This document shows positions 5,233 to 64,000 of a stretch of 64,000 bases of DNA, one piece after another. The DNA lies in NCBI GenBank assembly GCA_032358255.1, contig JAULBX010002778.1, positions 62,001 to 126,000 of the forward strand, given 5' to 3'. Made by a program: the position numbers and the translations under genes. The notes below the pieces were generated by a model. It ran no database searches. It was not told where the DNA came from and worked only from the letters and a program-made list of their open reading frames with translations. Within the stretch, counting starts at the first letter, position 1. Each line of letters begins with the position of its first letter. Source of the DNA: Heterotrichella gracilis (Eukaryota; Sar; Xanthophyceae; Tribonematales; Xanthonemataceae).

Positions 5233-8175
5233 CTACCACCCCTGCTCCCACGCATGTCCTCCGCACCCCCCCACCCGCTGCCCTGGCTGTGGCTGTGGCT
5301 GTGGCTGCTGCCTGTTGCCGTGTGCCAGGGGGGGGTGGTAATTGGAGAGCCGTGGCTGGGCAAGGGCTGGGTACCCAGGGAAGAAGGCGCAACACTCTGC
5401 ACACATGCGTACACGGGTGGGTAGGGCACACACCGACACCCACACGGCATTACACATCAGTTTGGGCATGCCAAAGCAGCAAACACGCATGCGTGGGTAC
5501 TCGCACTGGTCAAAGGTGCACCCAGCGGAGCCAACACGCATGCCCCCCACTAGTCCCAACATCCATGTATGCAGGGCCACCCAGCGCTGCCGCACCATGT
5601 CGCTTGCGCCGCTGCCGCTGCTGGTGGGCCGCTTGATGGACAGGTGGCGCGACCCCGCAGTGTGCACCCCTGCGTGGCGCGGCTGCAGGTGCCAGTCAAA
5701 GGGCAGGCCAGCGGGTGCAATGGGGGCCACATGCTCCTCGTCCTGGGCACAAGGGGGGAGGGGAGAGAGACGGATTCAGCTTGGCTGGGGAGGGCGTAGA
5801 TGGGCAGGGAGAGAGGTAAATGCCAGGTCAGGTGCAACAGGCAGTGGCATGCACCCTGACACAACTTGCGGTACCGCTGTTGGCAAAGTAGTTGCATATT
5901 TGCTGTACCACTACTGGCAAATAACTCAATGTACCGCTCCAGGCCTTGGTGTTGCCCCAAGTTGCCCCAAATGAGCATCCCCACCCACCTTGAAGCGCGT
6001 GCGCCCCCCCAGCAGGTGCTCCGCCCAGCTGCCCTGTGAGAACAGGAAGTACAGGAATGCCAGCAGCAGGATGGCGCTCATGGCCACGTTGGTGGAGGTG
6101 CCGCTGGGGCCGGGGAACTTGAGCCAGGCTGCAATTGCCAGGTTTGCAAAGAACAACGGCGTGCCTGCGCTGAACATGAGGAAGGCGCGGCGCCACTCGC
6201 CCTCGCACCGCGCGTTCCAGTGGTTGAGGAAGTTGCGGCGCGGGGCGGGGGGGCGCGCACCAGGGGTGTACCTGCACAGGAGGGGGGTGATGAATTATCA
6301 CCATCACTGATAATGGTTACATTTTCCGCGATGGTCAATGGCCAACTATGAGGAGCCACTGTGTGCAGAGTGGTGCATGGTCATTTCCATCAAGCTGCAT
6401 ACATGCGCGGCCCATGGCACCTTGTCCAGGACGCCACACTGCATCGTGCACCTTGCCTACTGCCTGACAGGTCAAGAGCTGCTGCCACATTGTATGATAT
6501 CCACCACACGCCACTGGCATGCGCAACCATGACACACGCCCATGGCATTCCTTCCAGTGCACCCATGCACCACTACAGGTGCCGGACAATGCCTTGCTTG
6601 CGTGTAGCCTGCTTCCCCCTTCTGTCCCTCCCCCTTATCTCCCCACCTTATCGCCCACCCCCTGCACTCGCTCATGAATGCCGCCTCCTCCTCCTCAGCA
6701 ACGTATGCCCGACCAGTCTTGAGGATGGATGCGTGGATAAGGGAGCACATGACCATGGAGTTAAGGGTCAGGCCAACCTGGAGGGTGAGGAGGGGGGTGA
6801 GGGTGGGGGATCATCACCAGCGATGGGTGGAGAAACTGTGGTACCGGCCAGGTTGCCTGTGCAGCAGTGACGGTAGCCAAGTGGCTCGCTGCGGCAGCGC
6901 GAGCAGAGCGAGGGGCAAACAGGGGGGTATGAACGTGCAGGCAGTTTGCGGCGCAAGGTGCAAGGTATCAGGGCCATATCAGGGGCAATGTTAGTGGGTT
7001 GCAAGCAGCAGGGGCATGTGTGTGCCTGGGTGTGCAATGCGGAGTGGCCGCACCACCAGCGCCGTCGTCACTCCAAACAGAATGACCAACCACTCCGGCG
7101 CCTGCGCGCTGTCAAAGCTGAACTGAAGAAAGCCGGCCACAGCAAAACCTGTGCATGGGTAAGGAAGGGTGGCAAGCGTGTCATGCGGGTGGACACTGGC
7201 AGAGAGGGCTACGACTGCTCGGCCACTGCCACCCGGCTGCCTAGGTGCTTCCTCCAGGCAGCGCACACGTGCAGTGGAATGTGCAACATCGCTGCTGCGG
7301 GGATGTCCCCCACTCCACGATGATCACATGGCCAAAACATCCCTGGCACATGTTCACATACTGCCCATTCAACCCACACCTGCACATTCAGGATGTTCGC
7401 AAGACCCTAACAAACACCCTGCACACGCGATGATCCCCTGCCATGCCCTCCCCTACCTTGCCCACCCACTACACATCCCACCCCCAACCACACCTGCGAT
7501 GAGCGCGGACAAGTTTGAGATGCCCTTGAGCTGCTCAGCGCGCTCCTCCACATCACGCCGGTTCTTCTCAACAAACCTATCCCATAGCACCCGCGCATTG
7601 TCAAGCACGCGCTGCTCAATGTCCTCACACCGCCAGGCACGCTCCTCCGACCTGGGGATGTGGTGGGAGGTGGGCGGGCAGGCGGGATAGGCCAGGGGGA
7701 ACTGCTGGCAAGATGTAGATAATCACAGGGTTGAATGGAGGAGTATGACGTGCAGCAAATGGGCTGCCTGGTATGTCATGGTACATCACATGCACCGCTG
7801 GGCACCAGGTGTGGTAGACATGGCACAGGCAGGCAGCCTTGGGTGTGACATAGTGTATGGCCCTTGACATGGCACAGCCAGGCCATGCGCCACGCCGCTG
7901 CAACTGCCTCCAACAATAGCCCTGCTTGCACCCATCCTTACTGCATCCATCAGCACGTCAAGTCGAGCAGTGCATGCGGGACGGCACCAAACTACAGGGT
8001 TTTGCTCAGGGACGCACTGGAAGTCCAGCCCCGCCTCCGCCCACCGCCGTTCCTGCCCCCTCCAGGCCAGGTCCTCGCGCCGCCATGACCGGTCCTCCTC
8101 ACGCCAGGCGCGGCTGAGGGCGGTGTCCAGCCCAGTCAGCACAGCCTGGGCAGTATCAAAAAACGCCTCCGCCAT
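5233..8175 (-). CDS. Orai-like calcium channel (CRAC family)
   Basis: Four-helix membrane protein resembling Orai, the pore subunit of store-operated Ca2+ channels. Exons: 8175-~8017 (charged N-terminus), ~7650-7497 (charged helix ending at NLSALIAG), ~7155-7050 (TM1, GFAVAGFLQFSFDS, and start of TM2), ~6785-6667 (rest of TM2 joining as TTALVVGLTLNSMVMCSLIH), ~6275-5990 (TM3 LFFANLAIAAWLKF and TM4 LLLAFLYFLFSQ), and a last exon from ~5745. Joins through TM1, TM2 and TM3 keep frame. Conserved with animal Orai: the LK before TM1, SAL, GF, the D four residues after the filter position, and the WxKF after TM3. The two acidic positions of human Orai1 (E106, E190) align with Q and N here. The C-terminus is uncertain: the last exon is open to 5233 and may be spliced earlier. 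Orai homologues are known from green algae and non-seed plants. Confidence 0.78.
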
Positions 8176-32433: not shown

Positions 32434-34111
32434 TCACGGCCGCTGCACCACCGCAGCCAGCATGCCCGGCAGCCCCCCACCTCCGCCCCCCCCCGCCACC
32501 TGCCCCGCAATCACCACCAGCGAGGCATACAGCCCCAGCCCAGACAGCGCCACCGAGGCGGGGATGAGCGCCCGGCACAGCGCCCGCTCCGCCCACCCCA
32601 GCTTGTGGCCCAGCAGCCGCAGCGTGAACATGGCGGGCAGCGTGTATGCGCACGTCAGGTAGCACACCGACACCAGCAGGCCCACCAGGGAGGAGAAGAA
32701 GGGGAGCGCGACAGCCACCGCGATGGAGTAGGACACAATGACGGTGGTGGTGGCCAGCCACGCAAGGCGACCAAACAGCGGCTGGCTGTGGCCGTGTGCA
32801 TGCGTGTCCCCGTCATCCAGTGCCCCTTGGCTGCTGGGTGCTGCTCCATCCTGTCCCAGCTGCGGCGCGGGTGGGCCCCATGTGCGCCTGGCGATCGTGA
32901 GTATGTTCATTGCCCACACGTTGAGGTTGACCAGGTACTGCGCCACCGCCTGCACCAGCAGCGCGCAGCACGCCATGCGGCTCAGCGGGCCGGGCGCCAT
33001 GCTGAAGATGACGATCTCGTCCACCTTGCTCCCCTTGGCACGGTACCCCACCGCCCCCAGCGCCAGGTAGGCGGCCGTCATGAAGCCGACCGCAGCCGCC
33101 ACGGCGGACGGGAAGCGCTTGGGCTGGCGCATGGAGCACAGCAGCTCCACGTATGCAAACTGGCCACCGTAGGCAAAGAAGATGTTGGTGACGGCCACTA
33201 GGGACTGGCGCCAGTCCGCTGTGTTGACCAGGGTGGTGTGCGGGTCGGGGTCTGGATGCTGCGTGATGTCCACCAGCACCGCGCCCAGTGCCACCATCTG
33301 GCAGGCGGTGCCCAGCAGGAAGAAGTAGGACAGGCGCCGCAGCGACTGGTACTGGCCCAGCACGAGCACGGCGGCACCCACGACCACGGCGTACTGCGAG
33401 CGGGGCAGCGCGGCGTGAGGGGCGGGGCGGCATTGGCACGGCATTGGCATGGCATTGGGGCATGGCATTGGACGTGCACGGCGCTGGATCATGTGCATGG
33501 CATGGCACCAAATGCAGCGCATGGCACCTCGCCGCATTGTAATGACAATCCATATGTGTACAACTGCTACAATGGAAGTGAAGTAATAATTGCAGAACAT
33601 GCATGCCTTCAATGGCGTTACAATTCCCGCCGCAAGCGCACCTCCAGCAGCGACCTGTCCATGCCCGCCGCCGCCGCCTGCAGGCTGCGCGTGGCCGCCA
33701 GCTGCATCACCACACAGCGCGTGGCGTCCAGCACGTAGATGATGGTGGAGATGGCGGCGCGGCCGGCGGCGCCGTACGCGCGCCCGCCCACATCCCCGCA
33801 CAGGCACACACCCGGCGTGCTCCAGCACAGGCGCGCGTACATCAGGCCTGAGTAGCAGGTCAGGAGGCACACACACACCACTGTGGCGGTGGCAGGCAGC
33901 CAGCCCATGCGCGCAAAGTCTGATGGCAGCACCCACAGGCCCCAGCCCAGCTGGAGTGTGAGGAGCGCTGACACGGTGAGGAACCAGGGGGACTTGTGGT
34001 GGTGGGAGGAAGGGGAGGGAGAGGCATCGCAGGGGGACTTGAGGGTGTGGGAGGTGGATAGGTCGGAGGTTGAGAGGAGGGGCTCAGCAAGGGAGGCAGC
34101 GATGGTGGCAT
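32434..34111 (-). CDS. Amino acid/auxin permease-family transporter (5' incomplete)
   Basis: Multi-pass transporter of the AAAP superfamily (proton-coupled amino acid permeases, vacuolar or plasma membrane). Two exons are clear: 34111-~33645, and a long one 33396-32434 ending in TGA. The cytosolic N-terminal part (DATIAASLAEPLLSTSDLS) carries an EPLL acidic dileucine-like motif. TM1 is LLTLQLGWGLWVLPSDFARMG, with the glycine-rich substrate-binding helix typical of the family; about ten more hydrophobic segments follow. NIFFAYGGQFAYVELLCSM and PKRFPSAVAAAVGFMTAAYLALG are family-like. A hydrophilic His-rich loop (residues encoded near 32780-32850) splits the later helices. At least one 5' exon, supplying one base of the first codon, lies upstream and was not identified. 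Substrate cannot be told from sequence. Confidence 0.8.
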
Positions 34112-35546: not shown

Positions 35547-38138
35547 TCAGCCGTAGAAGTTCATGATGTAGTGGTCCACCTTCTGGTTGCACAGCGGGCA
35601 CCTGCCGCTGCCATGGTCCTTGATGTCGGTGGCACAGTCGCGGCAGCAGCACTTGTGGACGCTGTCGCCATGCACAAACCCGGCCTGGCGAGGGGCTGCC
35701 AGGCACACCACACACAGCGTCTCGTCGTCCTCCAGGCTGATGGCGGACAGGGGGGGCGCGTCATGGGCGATGGGGGCGGGGGAGGGGACCGAGCCGGCGA
35801 ACAGGGGCGGGTACAGCGGGGCTGCGGCCGCATGTGGGCCCGCAGGTGGGGCTGCGTCTGGCACCGCTGGAGGGTTTGGAGGGTTGCTGGCTGAGGGCAT
35901 CGGGGGTGCGGAGGCTGGCGCCTCGTCGCTGGCTGGTGGCGTGCTGGTGTCAGACTGCGGTGGCTGTGCAGCGCCTGGTGGCGCCATGGGTGGGTAGTAT
36001 GAGGTGGGCGCAGAGTCGCGCAGCGGGGAGAACGTGTGGTCATGTGCCTGGCCCGGGATTGTGGAGGGCTGTCCAGGTTGCCCTGCGGTGGGTATGGCCG
36101 GGTAGGTGGCTGCCGGCCAGGTGCTGGAGGGCAGAGGCTGGCTGTTGGTGCGGCCATGGCCGGCGGCGGAAGGTGACGGCCGCTGCAGTGCGGGGTCGCT
36201 GTTTGGCCTGGCTGCGCCGTCGGCTGCGTACTGCGGCACCCGCCCCGACGCCATGGCCGCTGCCAGCTGCGCGTCGTACTGCTCCTGGAGGCGGCGGGCA
36301 AGCAGCTCGTCGGGGGTGGGCTGGCCGGTGGGCGGGCGGGGAGGCAGCGGGACAGGGGCGGGGTGGGGGGCCTGGCCAGCGCCTGGGGCCATCCATGGCA
36401 CGGCGGGTGCTGCACCTGGTGCAAGGGCAACAATGGGCGGGATCACAGCACTGCAACTTCAGAACAGGAATAGATGCGCCAAGCATGGGGTAACAGTTAT
36501 GGTGCATGGGTGTAATGCACATATGCACTAACCCACGGATGCGCCTCCATGCATGGACATGTCATGCTCACCTGTCTGCCCAGCTGGTGGGTATCGCGGC
36601 ATGTGCTGCTGCGCCGCTGCCCCATAGTAGTATACGGCACCAGAGTTGCATGCGTCGATGAAGCGCTTGAGCTGCCCCGCCGCCAGTGCCGTGTCGTCAT
36701 CTGGTCGCAGGTGCAGGCTGTACCCCGTGGTCATGTCCCCAGTGATGGTGGCGTTGCTGGGGGCCTGGTGGCTGCGGTGGAGGGTGAGTCGGCACTGCAC
36801 GGGGCGCATGGGGTCAAGCCCCTGGGGCACACCCTGGCGCGGCACGGTGGCTGCGGCCTGCGCCCCGTCCAGCCACGCCTTCACCGACGGCGCAGGCTGG
36901 TCCTGGCCCTTGTAGCACAGCAGCACAGCGTGGGACACCTGCTGGCCGCTGCAGGTGGGGCACAGGGGCGTGAGCACAGGGGAGCATATACGCAGCTGGC
37001 GCACGTGGCAGCAGAATGCCGTGTGGAGAAGATAGGATGATGGCGTCTAAAACGCATAATGGCAGTGCGTGGTGCGGCACATGCCCTCCCTCCAACCCCC
37101 CACCCTTGCAAGCTGTACCTTGCGCCTGGGTATGGGTATCTGGGCATGGCCACCACCCAGCGCCGCTGCCACTCGTTTGCCAGGTTGAAGAACTTGGGCA
37201 CCTTGAGGCGCAGCCAGCCGCAGAAGGGCGAGTGCGACTCCAGCTTGCGCAGCAGGGCGGTGTTGCGGTAGTACACGGCAATGTCAACGGGGGTCAGGCC
37301 TGTGGGGAGGGGGGGTGGGGGAGGGAGTTGGGACAGCCGCAAGATGAGTGCACTAACTCAAGAGACTTTGCAGCTGCAGCAAATGCCGTTTCCAGGTTGT
37401 GGCACTGGGGTGTACCATTGCTGTAGCAGGCTCACCTTTGCTGTTCTCCAGGAACGGGTTGCAGCCCGAGGCCAGCAGCAGGTCTGTCACTGCCTCGTGG
37501 CGGTGGGCCACTGCCTCGTGCAGGGCGGTGCCGCCATCAGGCTTGCGGTTGATGGCGTGCACGTTGGCGCCATTTTGGAGCAGCTGCACCGACACCCAGA
37601 GTGACTTCAGTCACATCTCAAAACAGCTTCCATATGCATGCATGGTGCAGATCTGAAGTTAGGCCTACAGAGCCTGAGGAAACCCCAACTACTGTAGATC
37701 GCTGCATCTGAACAACCGAAATCAATACATACGCTGCCAAACATGCCAAGAGAGCGTCCGTCCAGGGATGCTGTGACTAACAGAGGCCAGGTGCTACGCA
37801 GGTGCTGCCCCAGCAGGGGCTGGATCACTCACCAACTTGACGCACTCCACTTGCCCCCGAGATGCTGCAGCTATCAGCGGTGTGGACCCATGGGCATCCT
37901 CGTACTCTATCGCCCGCCGCTTCTCGGCAGGGTTGCTGCCTCGCACCTGGGCAAGCATGGTCTGCACACCACAGCGCACACGGTTCAACACAACAGCCCA
38001 CGGCACGCGCTGTGACGCTTCCCACTAGATTGTGGTTTATTTGTGCAGTCTGCGGCGGATGGTCACCTTGAGTTGCTGCACGTCGCCATACTTGGCTGCC
38101 TTGTACACCTGCTCGGGGACGGAGGCAGCGTTCCCCAT
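35547..38138 (-). CDS. Ankyrin-repeat RING E3 ubiquitin ligase (XBAT34/35-like)
   Basis: E3 ubiquitin ligase of the plant XB3/XBAT family. Exons: 38138-38067, about 37962-37834, 37581-37437, 37301-37117, 36953-36575 and 36422-35547. The N-terminus MGNAAS is an N-myristoylation-type signal. Ankyrin repeats: QVYKAAKYGDVQQLKTM, GSTPLIAAASRGQVECVKLL, TALHEAVAHRHEAVTDLLLA and LTPVDIAVYYRNTALLRKLE. Next comes SPFCGWLRLKVPKFF...WVVAMP, the conserved block after the ankyrins in XBAT34/35, then LKRFIDACNSG, a long Pro/Ala/Ser-rich linker, and a C-terminal RING-HC finger (CVVCLAAP, HGDSVHKCCCRDC, CPLCNQKV). A Leu-zipper-like UBA motif was not seen. The final residues are MNFYG. Membrane attachment and ligase activity are inferred from the motifs. 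Confidence 0.88.
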
Positions 38139-45322: not shown

Positions 45323-47721
45323 ATGTCCATACAGTCACTACCGCGGTCGGTGGGTGCACTGCGCCAGCGGCTGCAGGACGCCTGCAGGTGTGTACCTGAA
45401 TACGGTCTTCCTGGCCTGTGGTTTGCCCACCACGCACCACTGCGGCATCTGGGTCATATAGTCCCCCAGAGTCTGCGTTGGCCTGTGCCCTGGGTGTGGG
45501 CACTCTCCACCGCATGCTGCGTTTCCACCTTGCTCACTTTTTGAGGGCCTCAGCCAATACCGCCCCTTCCCAGGCACATATCCGCATATGGCCGCCAGCG
45601 CCCGCATGTGTCTGGTGTGACCCGCCTGCTGGGGCGCACGCGGCGTGAGGCTGAGGGCCTGGAGGCGCTGTGCGTGCAGCTGGGGCTGGGGGAGGGGCAG
45701 GCACTGGAGGGGCTCATGGAGGGGGGGGAGGAGGGGGGAGGGGGGCCGCGCACCGCCGAGAGGCTGCAGGGCTTGCTGAACAACCTGAAGGGCATTGAGG
45801 CTGAGCTGCTGACTGCGCAGCATGCGCCCGATGTGGTGGCGCTGGGCAAGAGGTTCTACACGGTGGTGGATGGTGAGGGGAACCCACTCGTGCCGCCGCA
45901 TGGGTCACGGCAATCTATGCAGCATGCACGGAAATTCACTTAATTCACTTAAGTGCAATGCCATGGACATATTGACCATATGGCTGCATGTGCATCAGCT
46001 GCGGACATGGAAGTCAGGTTCCTTTTCGTTTTCTTGTCCCGCTGCGTTGGCCTGACCGCACTGCTGTGGGTGGTGCAGGCCGGTCTGTGGGTGTGGAGAT
46101 TGACTGCGTGGCGCAGGGCGGCGCGTGCTGGATTGAGGCCAAGGCACACCTCAACTTTGGGGTGGCGTCCAACCAGTGGAGCGGGACCAAGAGGAGCAGC
46201 AAAGGTGTGGCGTTGGGGGGCTGGGAGGATGAGGTGGGCGCTGTGCATGCACACACATGTCACTCACAGCTACCCCTGCAGGCATGTGTATGGTTGTGAC
46301 GCCTTCCCATGTACATATATTGTGCCGGAATGTAATGATTATAATATGTCTTTTTTCCAGCAATTAGTTGCTTTTCTTATATCATTTATGTATTTGTCGA
46401 GGCCCTGAATAAGTCGCCTTGCTTGTCCAGGCTTGCGCCAGCAGGTAGTTGACCAGGTGCGTGTGGCCATGGACCCGATCAATGCTGTGCGCTGGCGGCC
46501 CCCCTGCCTGGTGCTGTACTTCCCGCTGGGCACGCTGGGACCAGATGTTGCACGTGAGCTGCAGGGGATGAACGTCACGGTCATCACAGGTGGGGATGGG
46601 GAGCCATGTGGCGATGATGGGGAGGGGAGGGGGTGTCACGCAGATGTCACCTATTCCATGGTGTGGAGAGACGATGGGAATGATGGGGCGAGGTGCAGCT
46701 TACAGCCTAATTGATTCACCCTTGCACTCCCCTGCCTGCAGGCGAGTTTGACTCCAGTGCCCTCCCTGTACCCCCGCCGCCCCCCACTGCCGCCAACCTT
46801 GACGTCACAACACTGTGTGCGCTGGTGTCAGAGGTCAGCCATGGGGGTCCGGGCAATGCTCAGGTGGAGGAATGGGCGCAGAGAGTCAGCCACTGGCAGG
46901 TGAGGGGTAGGGGTGGGTCTGCTTCCAACCGCCCGCCATGGGTTTGTATAGCCATGGCACAGTTGTCACATGTGAAACACCTGAAGCGGTTCAAATTATT
47001 TTAATCACTGGTATAAGAATTACATAAGAATCCATTTTCATTGTGAAGTTCACAATATACAAAAAGAAGTAAGGGGCCTCCCCTTCACCATGCCCTTAAC
47101 TCCCTCACCCCTTTGCAGGATTGCCTAGATGCCGAGCGCTGCTCCCCCCTGCTGGCTGAGCTGTCCCCACACCTGCGGGGGCGGTGCCTGGTGGTGGAGC
47201 GGGGGGCGCTGGATCAGTTTGAGGCGCTGGTGGGCCAGTTTGGGGGGGAGCGGGAGCGGCGGCGGTGGGGGGCGCTGCGCCAACGACTGGTGGTGCTGCC
47301 CCCACAGGTGGAGGATGCGGAGGAGGCAGTGGCGGTGGGGGTGGGGGGCCACTGGGGGGAGGAGGGTGCATCGGTGGGAAACGTAAGGGGGCTAGGTGAT
47401 GAAGATGATGGGGAGGATGCATTTGCCGCCATTCTGTGTGGCCAGCGCGCCACCCTCAGAGACACGCTGGCATGCGAACCCGCCTCACCATCAGTGTGTG
47501 CTGCCCCCATCTCGGGATCCCCTTCCCACCCGCACTGCAGCGCACGCTTGGCCCACGGCATACCTGGCCTGCCCCCCGCCACCCGTGCAATGTTTGGCCT
47601 GGGCGACGCAGTGGGTGCAGTGACACTGACAGCCAACGGGGCTGCGCTGCGCCTGTTGGGCCACCACCGGCTGCAGCTTGAATGCCATGTGCACAGGCCG
47701 GTGTGGCTCACCGGACAGTGA
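45323..47721 (+). CDS. DUF1308 / UPF0415 (C7orf25-like) protein
   Basis: Conserved eukaryotic protein of unknown function. Six exons: 45323-45387, 45574-45872, 46079-46204, 46431-46589, 46742-46899, 47119-47721; all joins keep frame. The N-terminus is helical (LRQRLQDACRHI, RLQGLLNNLKGIEAELL). The conserved core reads SVGVEIDCVAQGGACWIEAKA, then NLDVTTLCALVSEVSHGG, an acidic linker, and TRAMFGLGDAVGAVTLTANG near the C-terminus. These three blocks match the order in human C7orf25. I know of no established biochemical activity. The second exon includes a Gly/Glu run (EGGEEGGGG). The acceptor at 45573/45574 was chosen because it alone joins the phase-2 first exon in frame. Confidence 0.85.
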
Positions 47722-60416: not shown

Positions 60417-63400
60417 ATGGGTGTCTCTCACAAGCCGCTCCCCTACAAGGACCCAGCCAAGTGGAACATCTTCAACCTCATCTCCTACTCCTGGGCCTTC
60501 ACCACCATTCGCAACAACCGCCGCGCCGCCCATGACATCGACGCGCTCCCTCTGCCCGCCGCCCTTGAGGCCGAGGTTGCCTACGAGGAGTTCAACCAGG
60601 CGTGGGAGAAGGAGCTCGAGAAGCCAGAGCCATCCCTTATGCGCTGCCTGCGCACTGTGTATGGCAGGGACATCCTGATTGCAGGCCTGTTTAAGGCGAT
60701 CTGGGCCACCCTGGTGAGTTGAAATATGCAAGTCCATATTCCTATCATCACTTGCCGTGATGCATGCCACACAGTACGGGTCGTGGTACCATGTGCAAGC
60801 AAGAAGGCTCATTGTCAACAGCAAGGTGTTAACAATTGCAATTGCACGTATGCTGATTTTGAAATTTTGATTGAATTTATGGTGCAAGCAAGGCTCATTC
60901 ATTGCTGATCAGCAAGGTTTCTGGTGTGTGGATTGTTTTTCTTTTAAAAACCCCGCCAAAAATATATGCATTTAACAGGCATATGCACACGTAGAAAAAA
61001 AATTTCAATCTGCTTTTTGCTTCACTCCAGCTCCTATTATGGCAGCGTGATTAATAAAAGCTATAATAAGCATATGTGCAGCTAGCCAACCACAAGTGGC
61101 CTGCAGCACCATGGCCATGCATTCAATTTGCTTGATATCATGTGCCTCATGTACCTTGTGCCGACTGCAGGTGATCTTCGGCGCCTACTTCTTTGTGCTG
61201 TACATCCTGGAGCATGTGGATGGAAACAACGCGGCGTGGGAGGCTGACTTCAAGGGATGGGCGCTGGTGGTGGGCTTCTTCGTTGATGCGTGGCTGCTAG
61301 GTACGCACAGCCACTCTAAAACCTGAACTTGTGCTAGGATGGCCATCTTCAGCTGCCGCCACTAGTTGCACTGTTGAATGATAGCAGCGCCCTGTGCTTA
61401 GTTCAACTAGTTGCATGCAGTTGGTGGTGCACCAGGTGACCCTGCCTGCACAGCCCCCCTTGGCAGCCAGTTGCAGCACTGACCTGCGTCCCCCTCTCCT
61501 CCCAGGTCTTGCCCTGCAGCGCGTGGGCTGGACTTGCCTCAACGTGGGCATCAAGGTGCGCTCCGCCCTGGTGGCCTCCATCTGCAAGAAGTCCTTCAAC
61601 ATGGCCAGGATCACCAAGGAGAGCCAGGCAGACGCTGTGTCCTTTGTCGCCTCCGATATTCACAAGATATTCGATGGCGTGCTGGACATCCACGACGTGT
61701 GGACCTCGCCTTTCATGGCAGCAGCCATTATGGGACTCATCGCCACACGCGTCGGCATCTGGGTACGCAACTGCCGAGCCTCAACATTGCAAAGAATTCT
61801 GCTATGACTGATTATCGTCTTTATTTCAGTGCTCTGCTATATTTGTCATTGAACTAGACAACTATCTATGTTTATTATTGTTGTATGTTTTTTTCCACAT
61901 GTACCTGTGCATGTTGCTGAGCAGCCCTGTTGCTGGCCTGTTGCTCACAGTGTGCTGTGCACAGCAAACTACATGGTCCATGCATGTACCGTTTTCAGTC
62001 TCATTCTCACCAATCTCCCTGTCCCCCCTGCAGGTGCTCCCTGGTGTCGCTGTGATCTGCATCATCCTTCCCCTGCAGTACTACTTCGGCTACCTCATCA
62101 TCACCAACAAGAAGAAGAACATCCCCAACATCACTGAGCGCAACATCATCGTCCGTGAGGTGCTGCCCGCCATGAAGCTGGTCAAGTTCTACGCATGGGA
62201 GCCATACTTTGAGAAGCTCATTGGCGAGGTAGGGATCAGGGGCGCTGCTTGCTAGAAACATTGCCCTGAAGCATCTAGCACTGCTGAGTTTGTATTCTGC
62301 AGAGTCTGTATTCAATGCCACCCATGCATGCCTGCTCCTACCCGACACCTACATCTGCGTGCATGCAATGTGCATAGATGCGTGCATGTGCCTGTGTGCC
62401 CCCAGGACCCCTCCCTGTTCCAGCCTGTGTGTACATTGTCCTTACACACTTGCTTGCCTACCTCCTGCAGGTGCGCACCCGGGAGATGAAGCACCTGATC
62501 AACAACTGCATCGTCAAGACCATCAATATCGCCATGGTGTTTGGCACCCCTCCCATGGTGGCGTCCGCTGTGTTCATCACCTACCAGTTCTTTGAGGCCA
62601 AGATCACCTCCCGCATCGCCTTCGTGCTCCTGTCGCTGTGCAACATCCTGCGCTTCCCGCTGGTGGTGCTGCCCAAGGCCATGCGCACCATGGCCGAGGC
62701 CATCAACGCCATCAAGCGCATGGACTCCTACTTCAAGGAGAGGCCAGCACAGGCGCAGAACCTGACCGGAGCACCAGGCATCCGCATCGTAAGTGCATGC
62801 GCAATGGATACATCTGTACAGCTCTGCACACTGATTGCTGTGCCCCATTCTAATGCTAACGCATTATCCCGGGATGGCCATTGTACTATGATTTATCCGA
62901 GCCGCTCATACACCCTAAACCCTAAGCCCATGCACAGCCATGCACAGTGATGGCTATTCATTGTCACCTGCACCCATCAGCTGACTTGTACCACTACTTG
63001 CTGACCCCCTCCTGCCCCCCTCCCCCCCCCCCCCACAGAGCAAGGCTGTGCTTGGCCACGAGACCAACCCCTCCTTCAAGCTCAAGGTCCCTGACTTCAG
63101 CTGCCAGCCGGGTGACCTGGTGTGCGTGGTGGGCCGCGTGGGTGCCGGCAAGTCCTCACTGGTGCAGGCAGTACTGGGAGACATGCAGCTGGTGAGTGCA
63201 CGCGCACATGCCTTGACTCAACCAACCTGTCTGGCACATGTACCTTGTCCCTGCTTTTGCATCCACAGGTCAGGATCATTAATTACTGATCTTGGCGTGT
63301 GATCAATAATGATCTTGATTATTATAGATAATTATGAATTCACCCAGTGGCCCGGCAGTAAGGCATTGCCTGTTTGACACAGCCTTAGCATCCAACAGCT

Positions 63401-64000
63401 CCCTCACACCGCATTACTGCATGCATGTTCCCACCCCACACCCCCACCACCTGCAGGAGTCTGGCGAGCTGCACTCTGGTGGTCGCATTGCCTATGTGCC
63501 CCAGAACCCCTGGACCCAGAACCTGACCATCAAGCAGAACATTTTGTTTGGCGCCGAGTACAATGAGGAGAAGTACCGCAAGGTCATCCACGACTGCGCC
63601 CTGGAGCTGGATCTGCAAATCTTGCCCAAGGGGGATGGCACCATGGCCGGCCTGCGCGGCATCAACCTGTCAGGGGGCCAGCGCCAGCGCGTCAACCTTG
63701 CGCGTGCCGCCTACGCCGAGTCCGACGTGGTGCTGCTGGACAACGCCCTGTCTGCTGTTGACCACCACACCGCGCACCACATCTTTGACCACTGCGTGAA
63801 GGGGGCGCTCAGCGACAAGGCCACCCTGCTCATTACCCACCAAGTGGAGGTGCGCCCTGCCTGGCAATGCACTCGAATCACTGTGCCCCGCTGCTAGCTA
63901 TACACATGCCCTGCTCTGCATGCTCCTTGCTGCATTCACATGGGATGTTGCTGTTGCCTGCACCCCATGTGCACACTCATGAGTGCCCTCCTTGTGCCAG
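60417..64000 (+). CDS. ABC transporter, subfamily C (MRP type), 5' part
   Basis: Multidrug-resistance-protein-type ABC exporter, probably vacuolar or plasma-membrane, exporting glutathione or other organic-anion conjugates. Exons: 60417-~60713, 61171-~61300, 61506-61762, 62034-62228, 62471-62788, 63039-63191, 63457-63849; the next would begin at or after 64000, where the window ends on a cag acceptor. The N-terminus (PYKDPAKWNIFNLISYSWAF) directly precedes TMD1, so there is no TMD0: the short ABCC form. TMD1 covers exons 1-5, with the conserved MKLVKFYAWEPYFEKLI. NBD1 has Walker A (GRVGAGKSS), Q-loop (VPQNPWTQN), signature (LSGGQRQRV), Walker B (VVLLDNALSAVD) and H-loop (LLITHQ). The residue after the Walker B Asp is Asn, not the Glu of active sites nor the Asp usual in ABCC NBD1. 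TMD2 and NBD2 lie outside the window. Confidence 0.96.

Follow-up and report, generated by a model that had tools for sequence, protein, structure and literature searches.

The window, the 64,000-nucleotide stretch of DNA analysed here, contains on its minus strand a gene whose predicted product is a real Orai-family membrane protein, the only one found in its own genome and probably a functional one, with Gln at the selectivity-filter position occupied by Glu106 in human Orai1, Ala at the hydrophobic gate (Val102) and Thr at the TM2 position of His134. By analogy with human Orai1 mutants, the strongest reading, to which we give a probability of about 0.45, is that of an Orai that works independently of STIM, with a re-tuned gate and with a filter that lacks carboxylates and is probably less selective for Ca2+. 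Orai channels are regarded as unable to do without Glu106 as their filter; a wild protein that pairs Gln106 with two changes that open the human channel constitutes a natural experiment on the co-evolution of gate and filter, and gives biophysics an Orai that is possibly STIM-free. The protein is also relevant to the role of Orai in algae and early plants, in which Orai is reported to occur without STIM (PMC11085791).

Gene structure and family membership

The gene comprises six exons and runs from an ATG at 8175 to about 5233 (Table 1). The span of 5990-7160 proposed in the sequence-only reading does cover TM1 to TM4, but the gene is larger. All five introns are of the GT-AG type, with overall GC contents of 0.56-0.63, and exons 1-5 have GC contents of 0.63, 0.49 and 0.81 at the first, second and third codon positions; the coding frame is intact over the six exons and its GC3 is coding-like. 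The exon 1/2 splice is supported by the N-terminal heptad register described below, which is uninterrupted over the junction, and the exon 2/3 boundary by the Gly98 codon, which is assembled across it and opens the TM1 segment GFAVAGFLQFSFDS. An alternative donor for exon 3, one codon earlier, would cost TM2 one Val and leave TM1 and the TM3 segment LFFANLAIAAWLKF of exon 5 unaffected. Both segments stand on the minus strand just as the sequence-only reading gave them.

Table 1. Exons of the Orai-family gene and codons of aligned pore residues, in positions of the window
Feature	Position	Strand	Basis
Exon 1: start Met and first part of the N-terminal heptad-Trp helix	8018..8175	-	gene model, translation, heptad pattern
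Exon 2: remaining N-terminal helix and cytosolic start of TM1; ends one base into the Gly98 codon	7494..7651	-	gene model, phmmer and MAFFT alignments
Exon 3: TM1 pore segment FAVAGFLQFSFDS, then the first part of TM2	7054..7148	-	gene model, alignments
Exon 4: remainder of TM2 and TM2-TM3 loop	6659..6777	-	gene model, weak PF07856 match
Exon 5: TM3 and TM4	5989..6271	-	gene model, PF07856 match
Exon 6: C-terminal tail, with an uncertain 3' end and possibly an extra intron	5233..5742	-	open frame and acceptor site
Ala110 codon = human Val102, hydrophobic gate	7135..7137	-	counted coordinates, column test
Gln114 codon CAG = human Glu106 (Drosophila E178), selectivity filter	7123..7125	-	phmmer, MAFFT, column tests
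Asp118 codon = human Asp110, kept	7111..7113	-	counted coordinates, phmmer, MAFFT
Thr141 codon = human His134, TM2	6766..6768	-	counted coordinates, MAFFT, column tests
Asn220 codon AAC = human Glu190 (Drosophila E262), TM3	6142..6144	-	phmmer, MAFFT, column tests

Against the Orai profile PF07856 (Pfam cut-off 25 bits) the protein scores 129.8 bits (E 1.1e-37; profile positions 2-168 of 173) in a query with an additional Arg where exons 1 and 2 meet, and a 218-residue core without this Arg scores 133.0 bits (E 1.2e-38), a match far beyond chance that on sequence grounds makes the gene product an Orai-family protein. The exon 6 tail lies outside the profile match. When phmmer was run against the sequences of solved structures, six of the seven listed were Orai chains (whole-sequence E 0.0017 to 0.018), which we take to be Drosophila Orai entries, and one was unrelated. 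Hydropathy in 19-residue windows exceeds a threshold of 1.0 at residues 93-122, 119-164, 205-230 and 231-264, which gives four predicted TM segments in the Orai order, preceded by a putative cytosolic helix; weaker hydrophobic windows at residues 326-344 and 357-392 fall in the uncertain exon 6 tail. The Gly98-Phe99 hinge of TM1, a family feature, is kept in both the phmmer and the MAFFT alignments.

N-terminal residues 22-63 follow a heptad register with Trp at 24, 31, 38, 45 and 59 and Phe at 52, and this repeat of five Trp and one Phe spans 8112-7621 on the minus strand, across an intron. The pattern was picked after being seen and then scored by 200,000 shuffles of residues 1-96, in which the frequency was 1.5e-5 for a run of six aromatics in one heptad register and 0.001 for at least five Trp in the best one. 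Leading towards TM1, the predicted helix could, as a guess, carry the gating input in a STIM-less cell.

Genome context

The genome (68.5 Mb in 903 contigs) was searched exon by exon, and only the best candidates were scored. No second Orai locus was detected in it with PF07856 at E 0.001 and 10 or with the window protein at E 10, and the N-terminus, used as a query at E 1, returned only pieces of the 8175-5233 locus. The profile scored 43.7 bits at 6318-6013, overlapping exon 5, and matched exon 2 (23.1 bits, E 0.00225) and exon 4 (11.6 bits) weakly; exon 3, which carries TM1, was missed by the profile alone and recovered by the window-protein query. A Drosophila Orai query of the same genome had no match, not even this locus, and was not counted, being powerless. 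Within this exon-by-exon search the earlier suggestion that the protein might be a regulatory subunit of another Orai is weakened, and a hetero-oligomer with a glutamate-bearing Orai of the same genome appears unlikely because one Orai locus was found. Collections of viral contigs and genome contigs yielded no Orai relatives; the one locus returned, from the viral contigs, was rejected as a chance match of only 11 residues of the charged N-terminal helix. In the literature searched, no report of a natural algal Orai without Glu106 was recognised.

The STIM SOAR profile PF16533 and the IP3 receptor profiles PF08709 and PF08454 had no match in the genome, and were silent in the controls as well. 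Profiles that did match there include the light-harvesting profile PF00504 (43 exon-level matches), Na_Ca_ex (10) and RbcS (one). The best solved-structure match of the Rubisco small subunit is 1gk8, the Chlamydomonas enzyme, and the light-harvesting genes together with this subunit indicate that the genome is that of a photosynthetic organism, in all likelihood a chlorophyte (green) alga. A Pfam scan of 10 frames in the window gave a match for 4: a transmembrane amino acid transporter domain (PF01490, E 2.4e-28) in an open frame at 32437-34083 and a RING finger piece at 35550-36458, both on the minus strand, and a DUF1308 piece at 47047-47718 and an ABC transporter ATPase piece (PF00005, E 9e-10) at 63328-63894, both on the plus strand.

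Pore residues and the family profile

Residue equivalences were taken from phmmer against Drosophila Orai and from MAFFT, and the two agree. The TM1 alignment is ungapped between Gly98 and Asp110 and both of these ends are conserved, so that a shift bringing an acidic residue to the filter would break both anchors. The replacements of Glu106 by Gln and of Glu190 by Asn, which had been read by eye, are confirmed by both aligners, and MAFFT likewise upholds the conserved Gly98, Phe99 and Asp110 and the changes of Arg91 to Asn and Val102 to Ala. The placement of TM3 rests on phmmer, MAFFT and a shared W-x-K-F end; only one of the three printed phmmer alignments includes the segment, its posterior values there being moderate, and E values for the best domains printed are 0.42-0.51 by themselves. 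Further changes, absent from the sequence-only reading, are the replacement of His134 by Thr in TM2, that of Arg83 by Ala and the loss of the acid at Drosophila D184 (a hand-counted number). Leu140 was rejected as the equivalent of His134 in favour of Thr141 on the basis of MAFFT and variant scores, Leu140 to His losing 2.8 bits.

The basic pore residues of Drosophila Orai (R155, K159 and K163) correspond to Ala, Lys and Asn, so one of the three is kept; the Arg155 position was obtained by extending the alignment from Lys159 with no gap. According to PMC7723414 these residues are Lys or Arg in every Orai channel, although the Pfam column at Drosophila 163 accepts Asn (see below). Two features of CRAC channels, the glutamate ring at human E106 and the set of three basic pore residues, are thus lacking, and since a defining CRAC feature fails, the protein, while belonging to the Orai family by its sequence, is not classed as a CRAC channel.

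How unusual each change is for the family was gauged from the change in PF07856 bit score caused by single-residue variants, on the Drosophila backbone (whose Orai piece scores 180.1 bits) and on the window protein. At the filter, Drosophila E178 variants change the score by -1.8 (D), -2.4 (Q), -2.7 (N), -3.9 (S), -4.3 (A) and -5.9 (L) bits, and variants of Gln106 in the window protein by +2.1 (E), -0.1 (D), -0.5 (N), -0.8 (K), -1.1 (H), -1.4 (S), -1.4 (R), -1.6 (T), -1.7 (A), -2.0 (G) and -2.8 (V). At Glu190 the values are -0.3 (Q), -0.4 (N), -0.7 (D), -0.8 (K), -1.4 (H), -1.5 (S), -1.6 (T), -1.6 (A), -2.0 (G), -2.4 (V) and -2.9 (L) for Drosophila E262, and +0.3 (E), +0.2 (Q), -0.8 (D) and -0.9 (A) for Asn190 of the window protein. 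Elsewhere in the window protein, Ala102 gains 3.5 bits as Val and 2.3 as Ile, and Thr134 gains 2.9 as His and changes by -0.1 as Asn and -0.2 as Ala; Thr therefore beats Ala or Asn by at most 0.2 bits and is not singled out as a favoured alternative in this column. The remaining variants of the window protein gave 0.0 (N91R), -0.5 (N91K), -1.2 (N91S), +1.3 (A83R), -3.5 (K87A), -0.5 (D110A), -2.7 (G98A) and -6.5 (F99A), and those of Drosophila Orai -3.6 (G170A), -6.2 (F171A), -3.4 (V174A), -3.9 (H206L), -3.4 (H206A), -3.9 (K159A), +0.5 (K163N), -1.1 (K163S), -1.3 (D182A), -1.9 (D184A) and -7.3 (W268A).

These scores were calibrated, by eye and with no formal fit, against nine Glu-containing synthetic columns at seven effective sequence numbers. 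The filter column resembles one of about 90-95% Glu with a little Asp and Gln at an effective number near 2. The percentages are rough, because the W268A loss is smaller than that of a pure-Trp column at the lowest setting (-7.8 at 1), which means that the Trp is not invariant or that the effective number is below 2. The Glu190 column resembles a polar mixture in which Glu is not dominant. By this measure Gln106, Ala102 and Thr134 are departures from PF07856 columns that prefer the animal residue, while Asn is unremarkable in the family at Glu190 and typical of it at Arg91. The sequence-only reading had proposed two coordinated Glu-to-amide changes in an otherwise intact pore, and neither half of that description is supported: the Glu190 column tolerates both amides, and the changes at Val102 and His134 are departures of 3.5 and 2.9 bits. 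The combination of Gln106, Ala102 and Thr134 is a more telling set than the amide pair.

The same columns bear on the proposal that this is an ordinary algal Orai, with a Gln filter typical of its clade and Ca2+ still passed by way of Asp110 and a wider, hydrated pore. At the filter, Asp and Gln have higher scores than a pure-Glu column would give them at each of the seven settings, and the PF07856 seed may therefore contain Gln; Gln is also the second best of the 12 residues tested at the filter, 0.1 bit above Asp, and the loop residue Asp110 is kept and Asn91 is typical. Inference from profile scores is, however, indirect and coarse, Ala102 and Thr134 would be further departures to account for, and the filter glutamate is reported to be retained even in the divergent diatom Orai (PMC11085791), all of which leaves this proposal rather unlikely.

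Proposed mechanism and comparison with known systems

By homology, the protein would most likely form an Orai-like hexamer with the TM1 helices lining the pore. The alignment shows the Gly98-Phe99 hinge retained, with Gln in place of the Glu106 ring, Ala in place of the ring of the Val102 gate and Thr in place of the His134 latch. In human Orai1, V102A/C and H134A/C/S/T are reported to be constitutively active (PMC12893689), and V102A/C to be the least selective constitutive mutant without STIM1 (PMC6647248). Because the human V102A or H134T channel opens without STIM, the barrier to opening is likely to be low here as well, and another element may take the place of STIM in gating, perhaps the long N-terminal helix with its Trp heptads. 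With the carboxylate ring absent, the high-affinity Ca2+ block should be lost, and the channel would then be a weakly selective cation pathway and not a CRAC-type Ca2+ channel. Other reported mutants touch the remaining changes: E190Q/A widen the pore (PMC6647248), and hydrophilic residues at position 91 preserve function (PMC12893689). Neutralization of the basic residues blocks activation of Orai1 and V102A restores activity (PMC12893689), with which the combination of a weak basic region and Ala102 in the window protein would agree. A fuller version, in which the Gln filter together with Ala102 and Thr134 yields an Orai with neither Ca2+ selectivity nor STIM control, broadly permeable to cations and gated from within by a six-helix bundle of the N-terminal Trp-heptad helices, is doubtful.

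Both the Thr134 score, at most 0.2 bits above those of Ala and Asn, and the filter itself count against the preferred reading. E106A/C/Q are reported to abolish the Ca2+ conductance of human Orai1, and in concatenated hexamers it is stopped by a single E106Q subunit (PMC12893689), so that the simplest transfer of the animal data would predict a dead pore. This loss of function favours the view that the protein is a non-conducting member of the family with a structural or regulatory role, comparable to animal Jiraiya/TMEM221, whose domains are described as lacking the Ca2+-binding residues and are suggested to be regulatory (PMC7016017). No other Orai that it might regulate was found in the exon-by-exon search of the genome, however, and the Gly98-Phe99 hinge and Lys87 are kept, as expected of a constrained pore; such a role is unlikely. 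An error in the assembly, with a true filter codon of GAG (Glu), would be one base from the CAG observed, and no second copy was found for comparison. It would leave Ala102, Thr134 and Asn220 unexplained in a frame that is otherwise intact, the Thr codon (ACC) being two bases from any His codon and the Asn codon (AAC) two bases from any Glu codon, and is very unlikely. Least probable is a decaying gene heading for loss, as with Orai in angiosperms, where it has been lost, since the changes at several pore columns and the poorly defined 3' end are set against an intact frame, five GT-AG introns, high GC3 and a strong profile score.

Compared with animal Orai/CRAC channels (human Orai1 and Drosophila Orai, PDB 4hkr, 6aki and 7kr5), the window protein matches the same profile, has its hydrophobic segments in the same order and has in common with them the SALxxGFA start of TM1, Gly98-Phe99, Lys87, Asp110 and the W-x-K-F end of TM3. 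It differs in having Gln for Glu106, Ala for Val102, Thr for His134, Asn for Glu190, Ala for Arg83 and Asn for Arg91, and in the loss of the D184 acid. Jiraiya/TMEM221 is likewise described as derived from Orai, but is reported from animals only, where its members are duplicates of Orai (PMC7016017), whereas no Orai besides the altered protein was found here.

Among the algae, green algae with Orai are said to be without STIM (PMC11085791). The Orai of Chlamydomonas reinhardtii (Cre01.g025000) is likewise single, in a species that appears to be STIM-less; it is said to keep many important sequence features and may have the filter Glu, and C. reinhardtii differs in possessing an IP3 receptor (PMC8318260), for which the two profiles run here with no control had no match. 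The divergent diatom Orai is also an algal Orai in the absence of STIM, but differs from the window protein in keeping its glutamate at the position of Drosophila E178 (PMC11085791).
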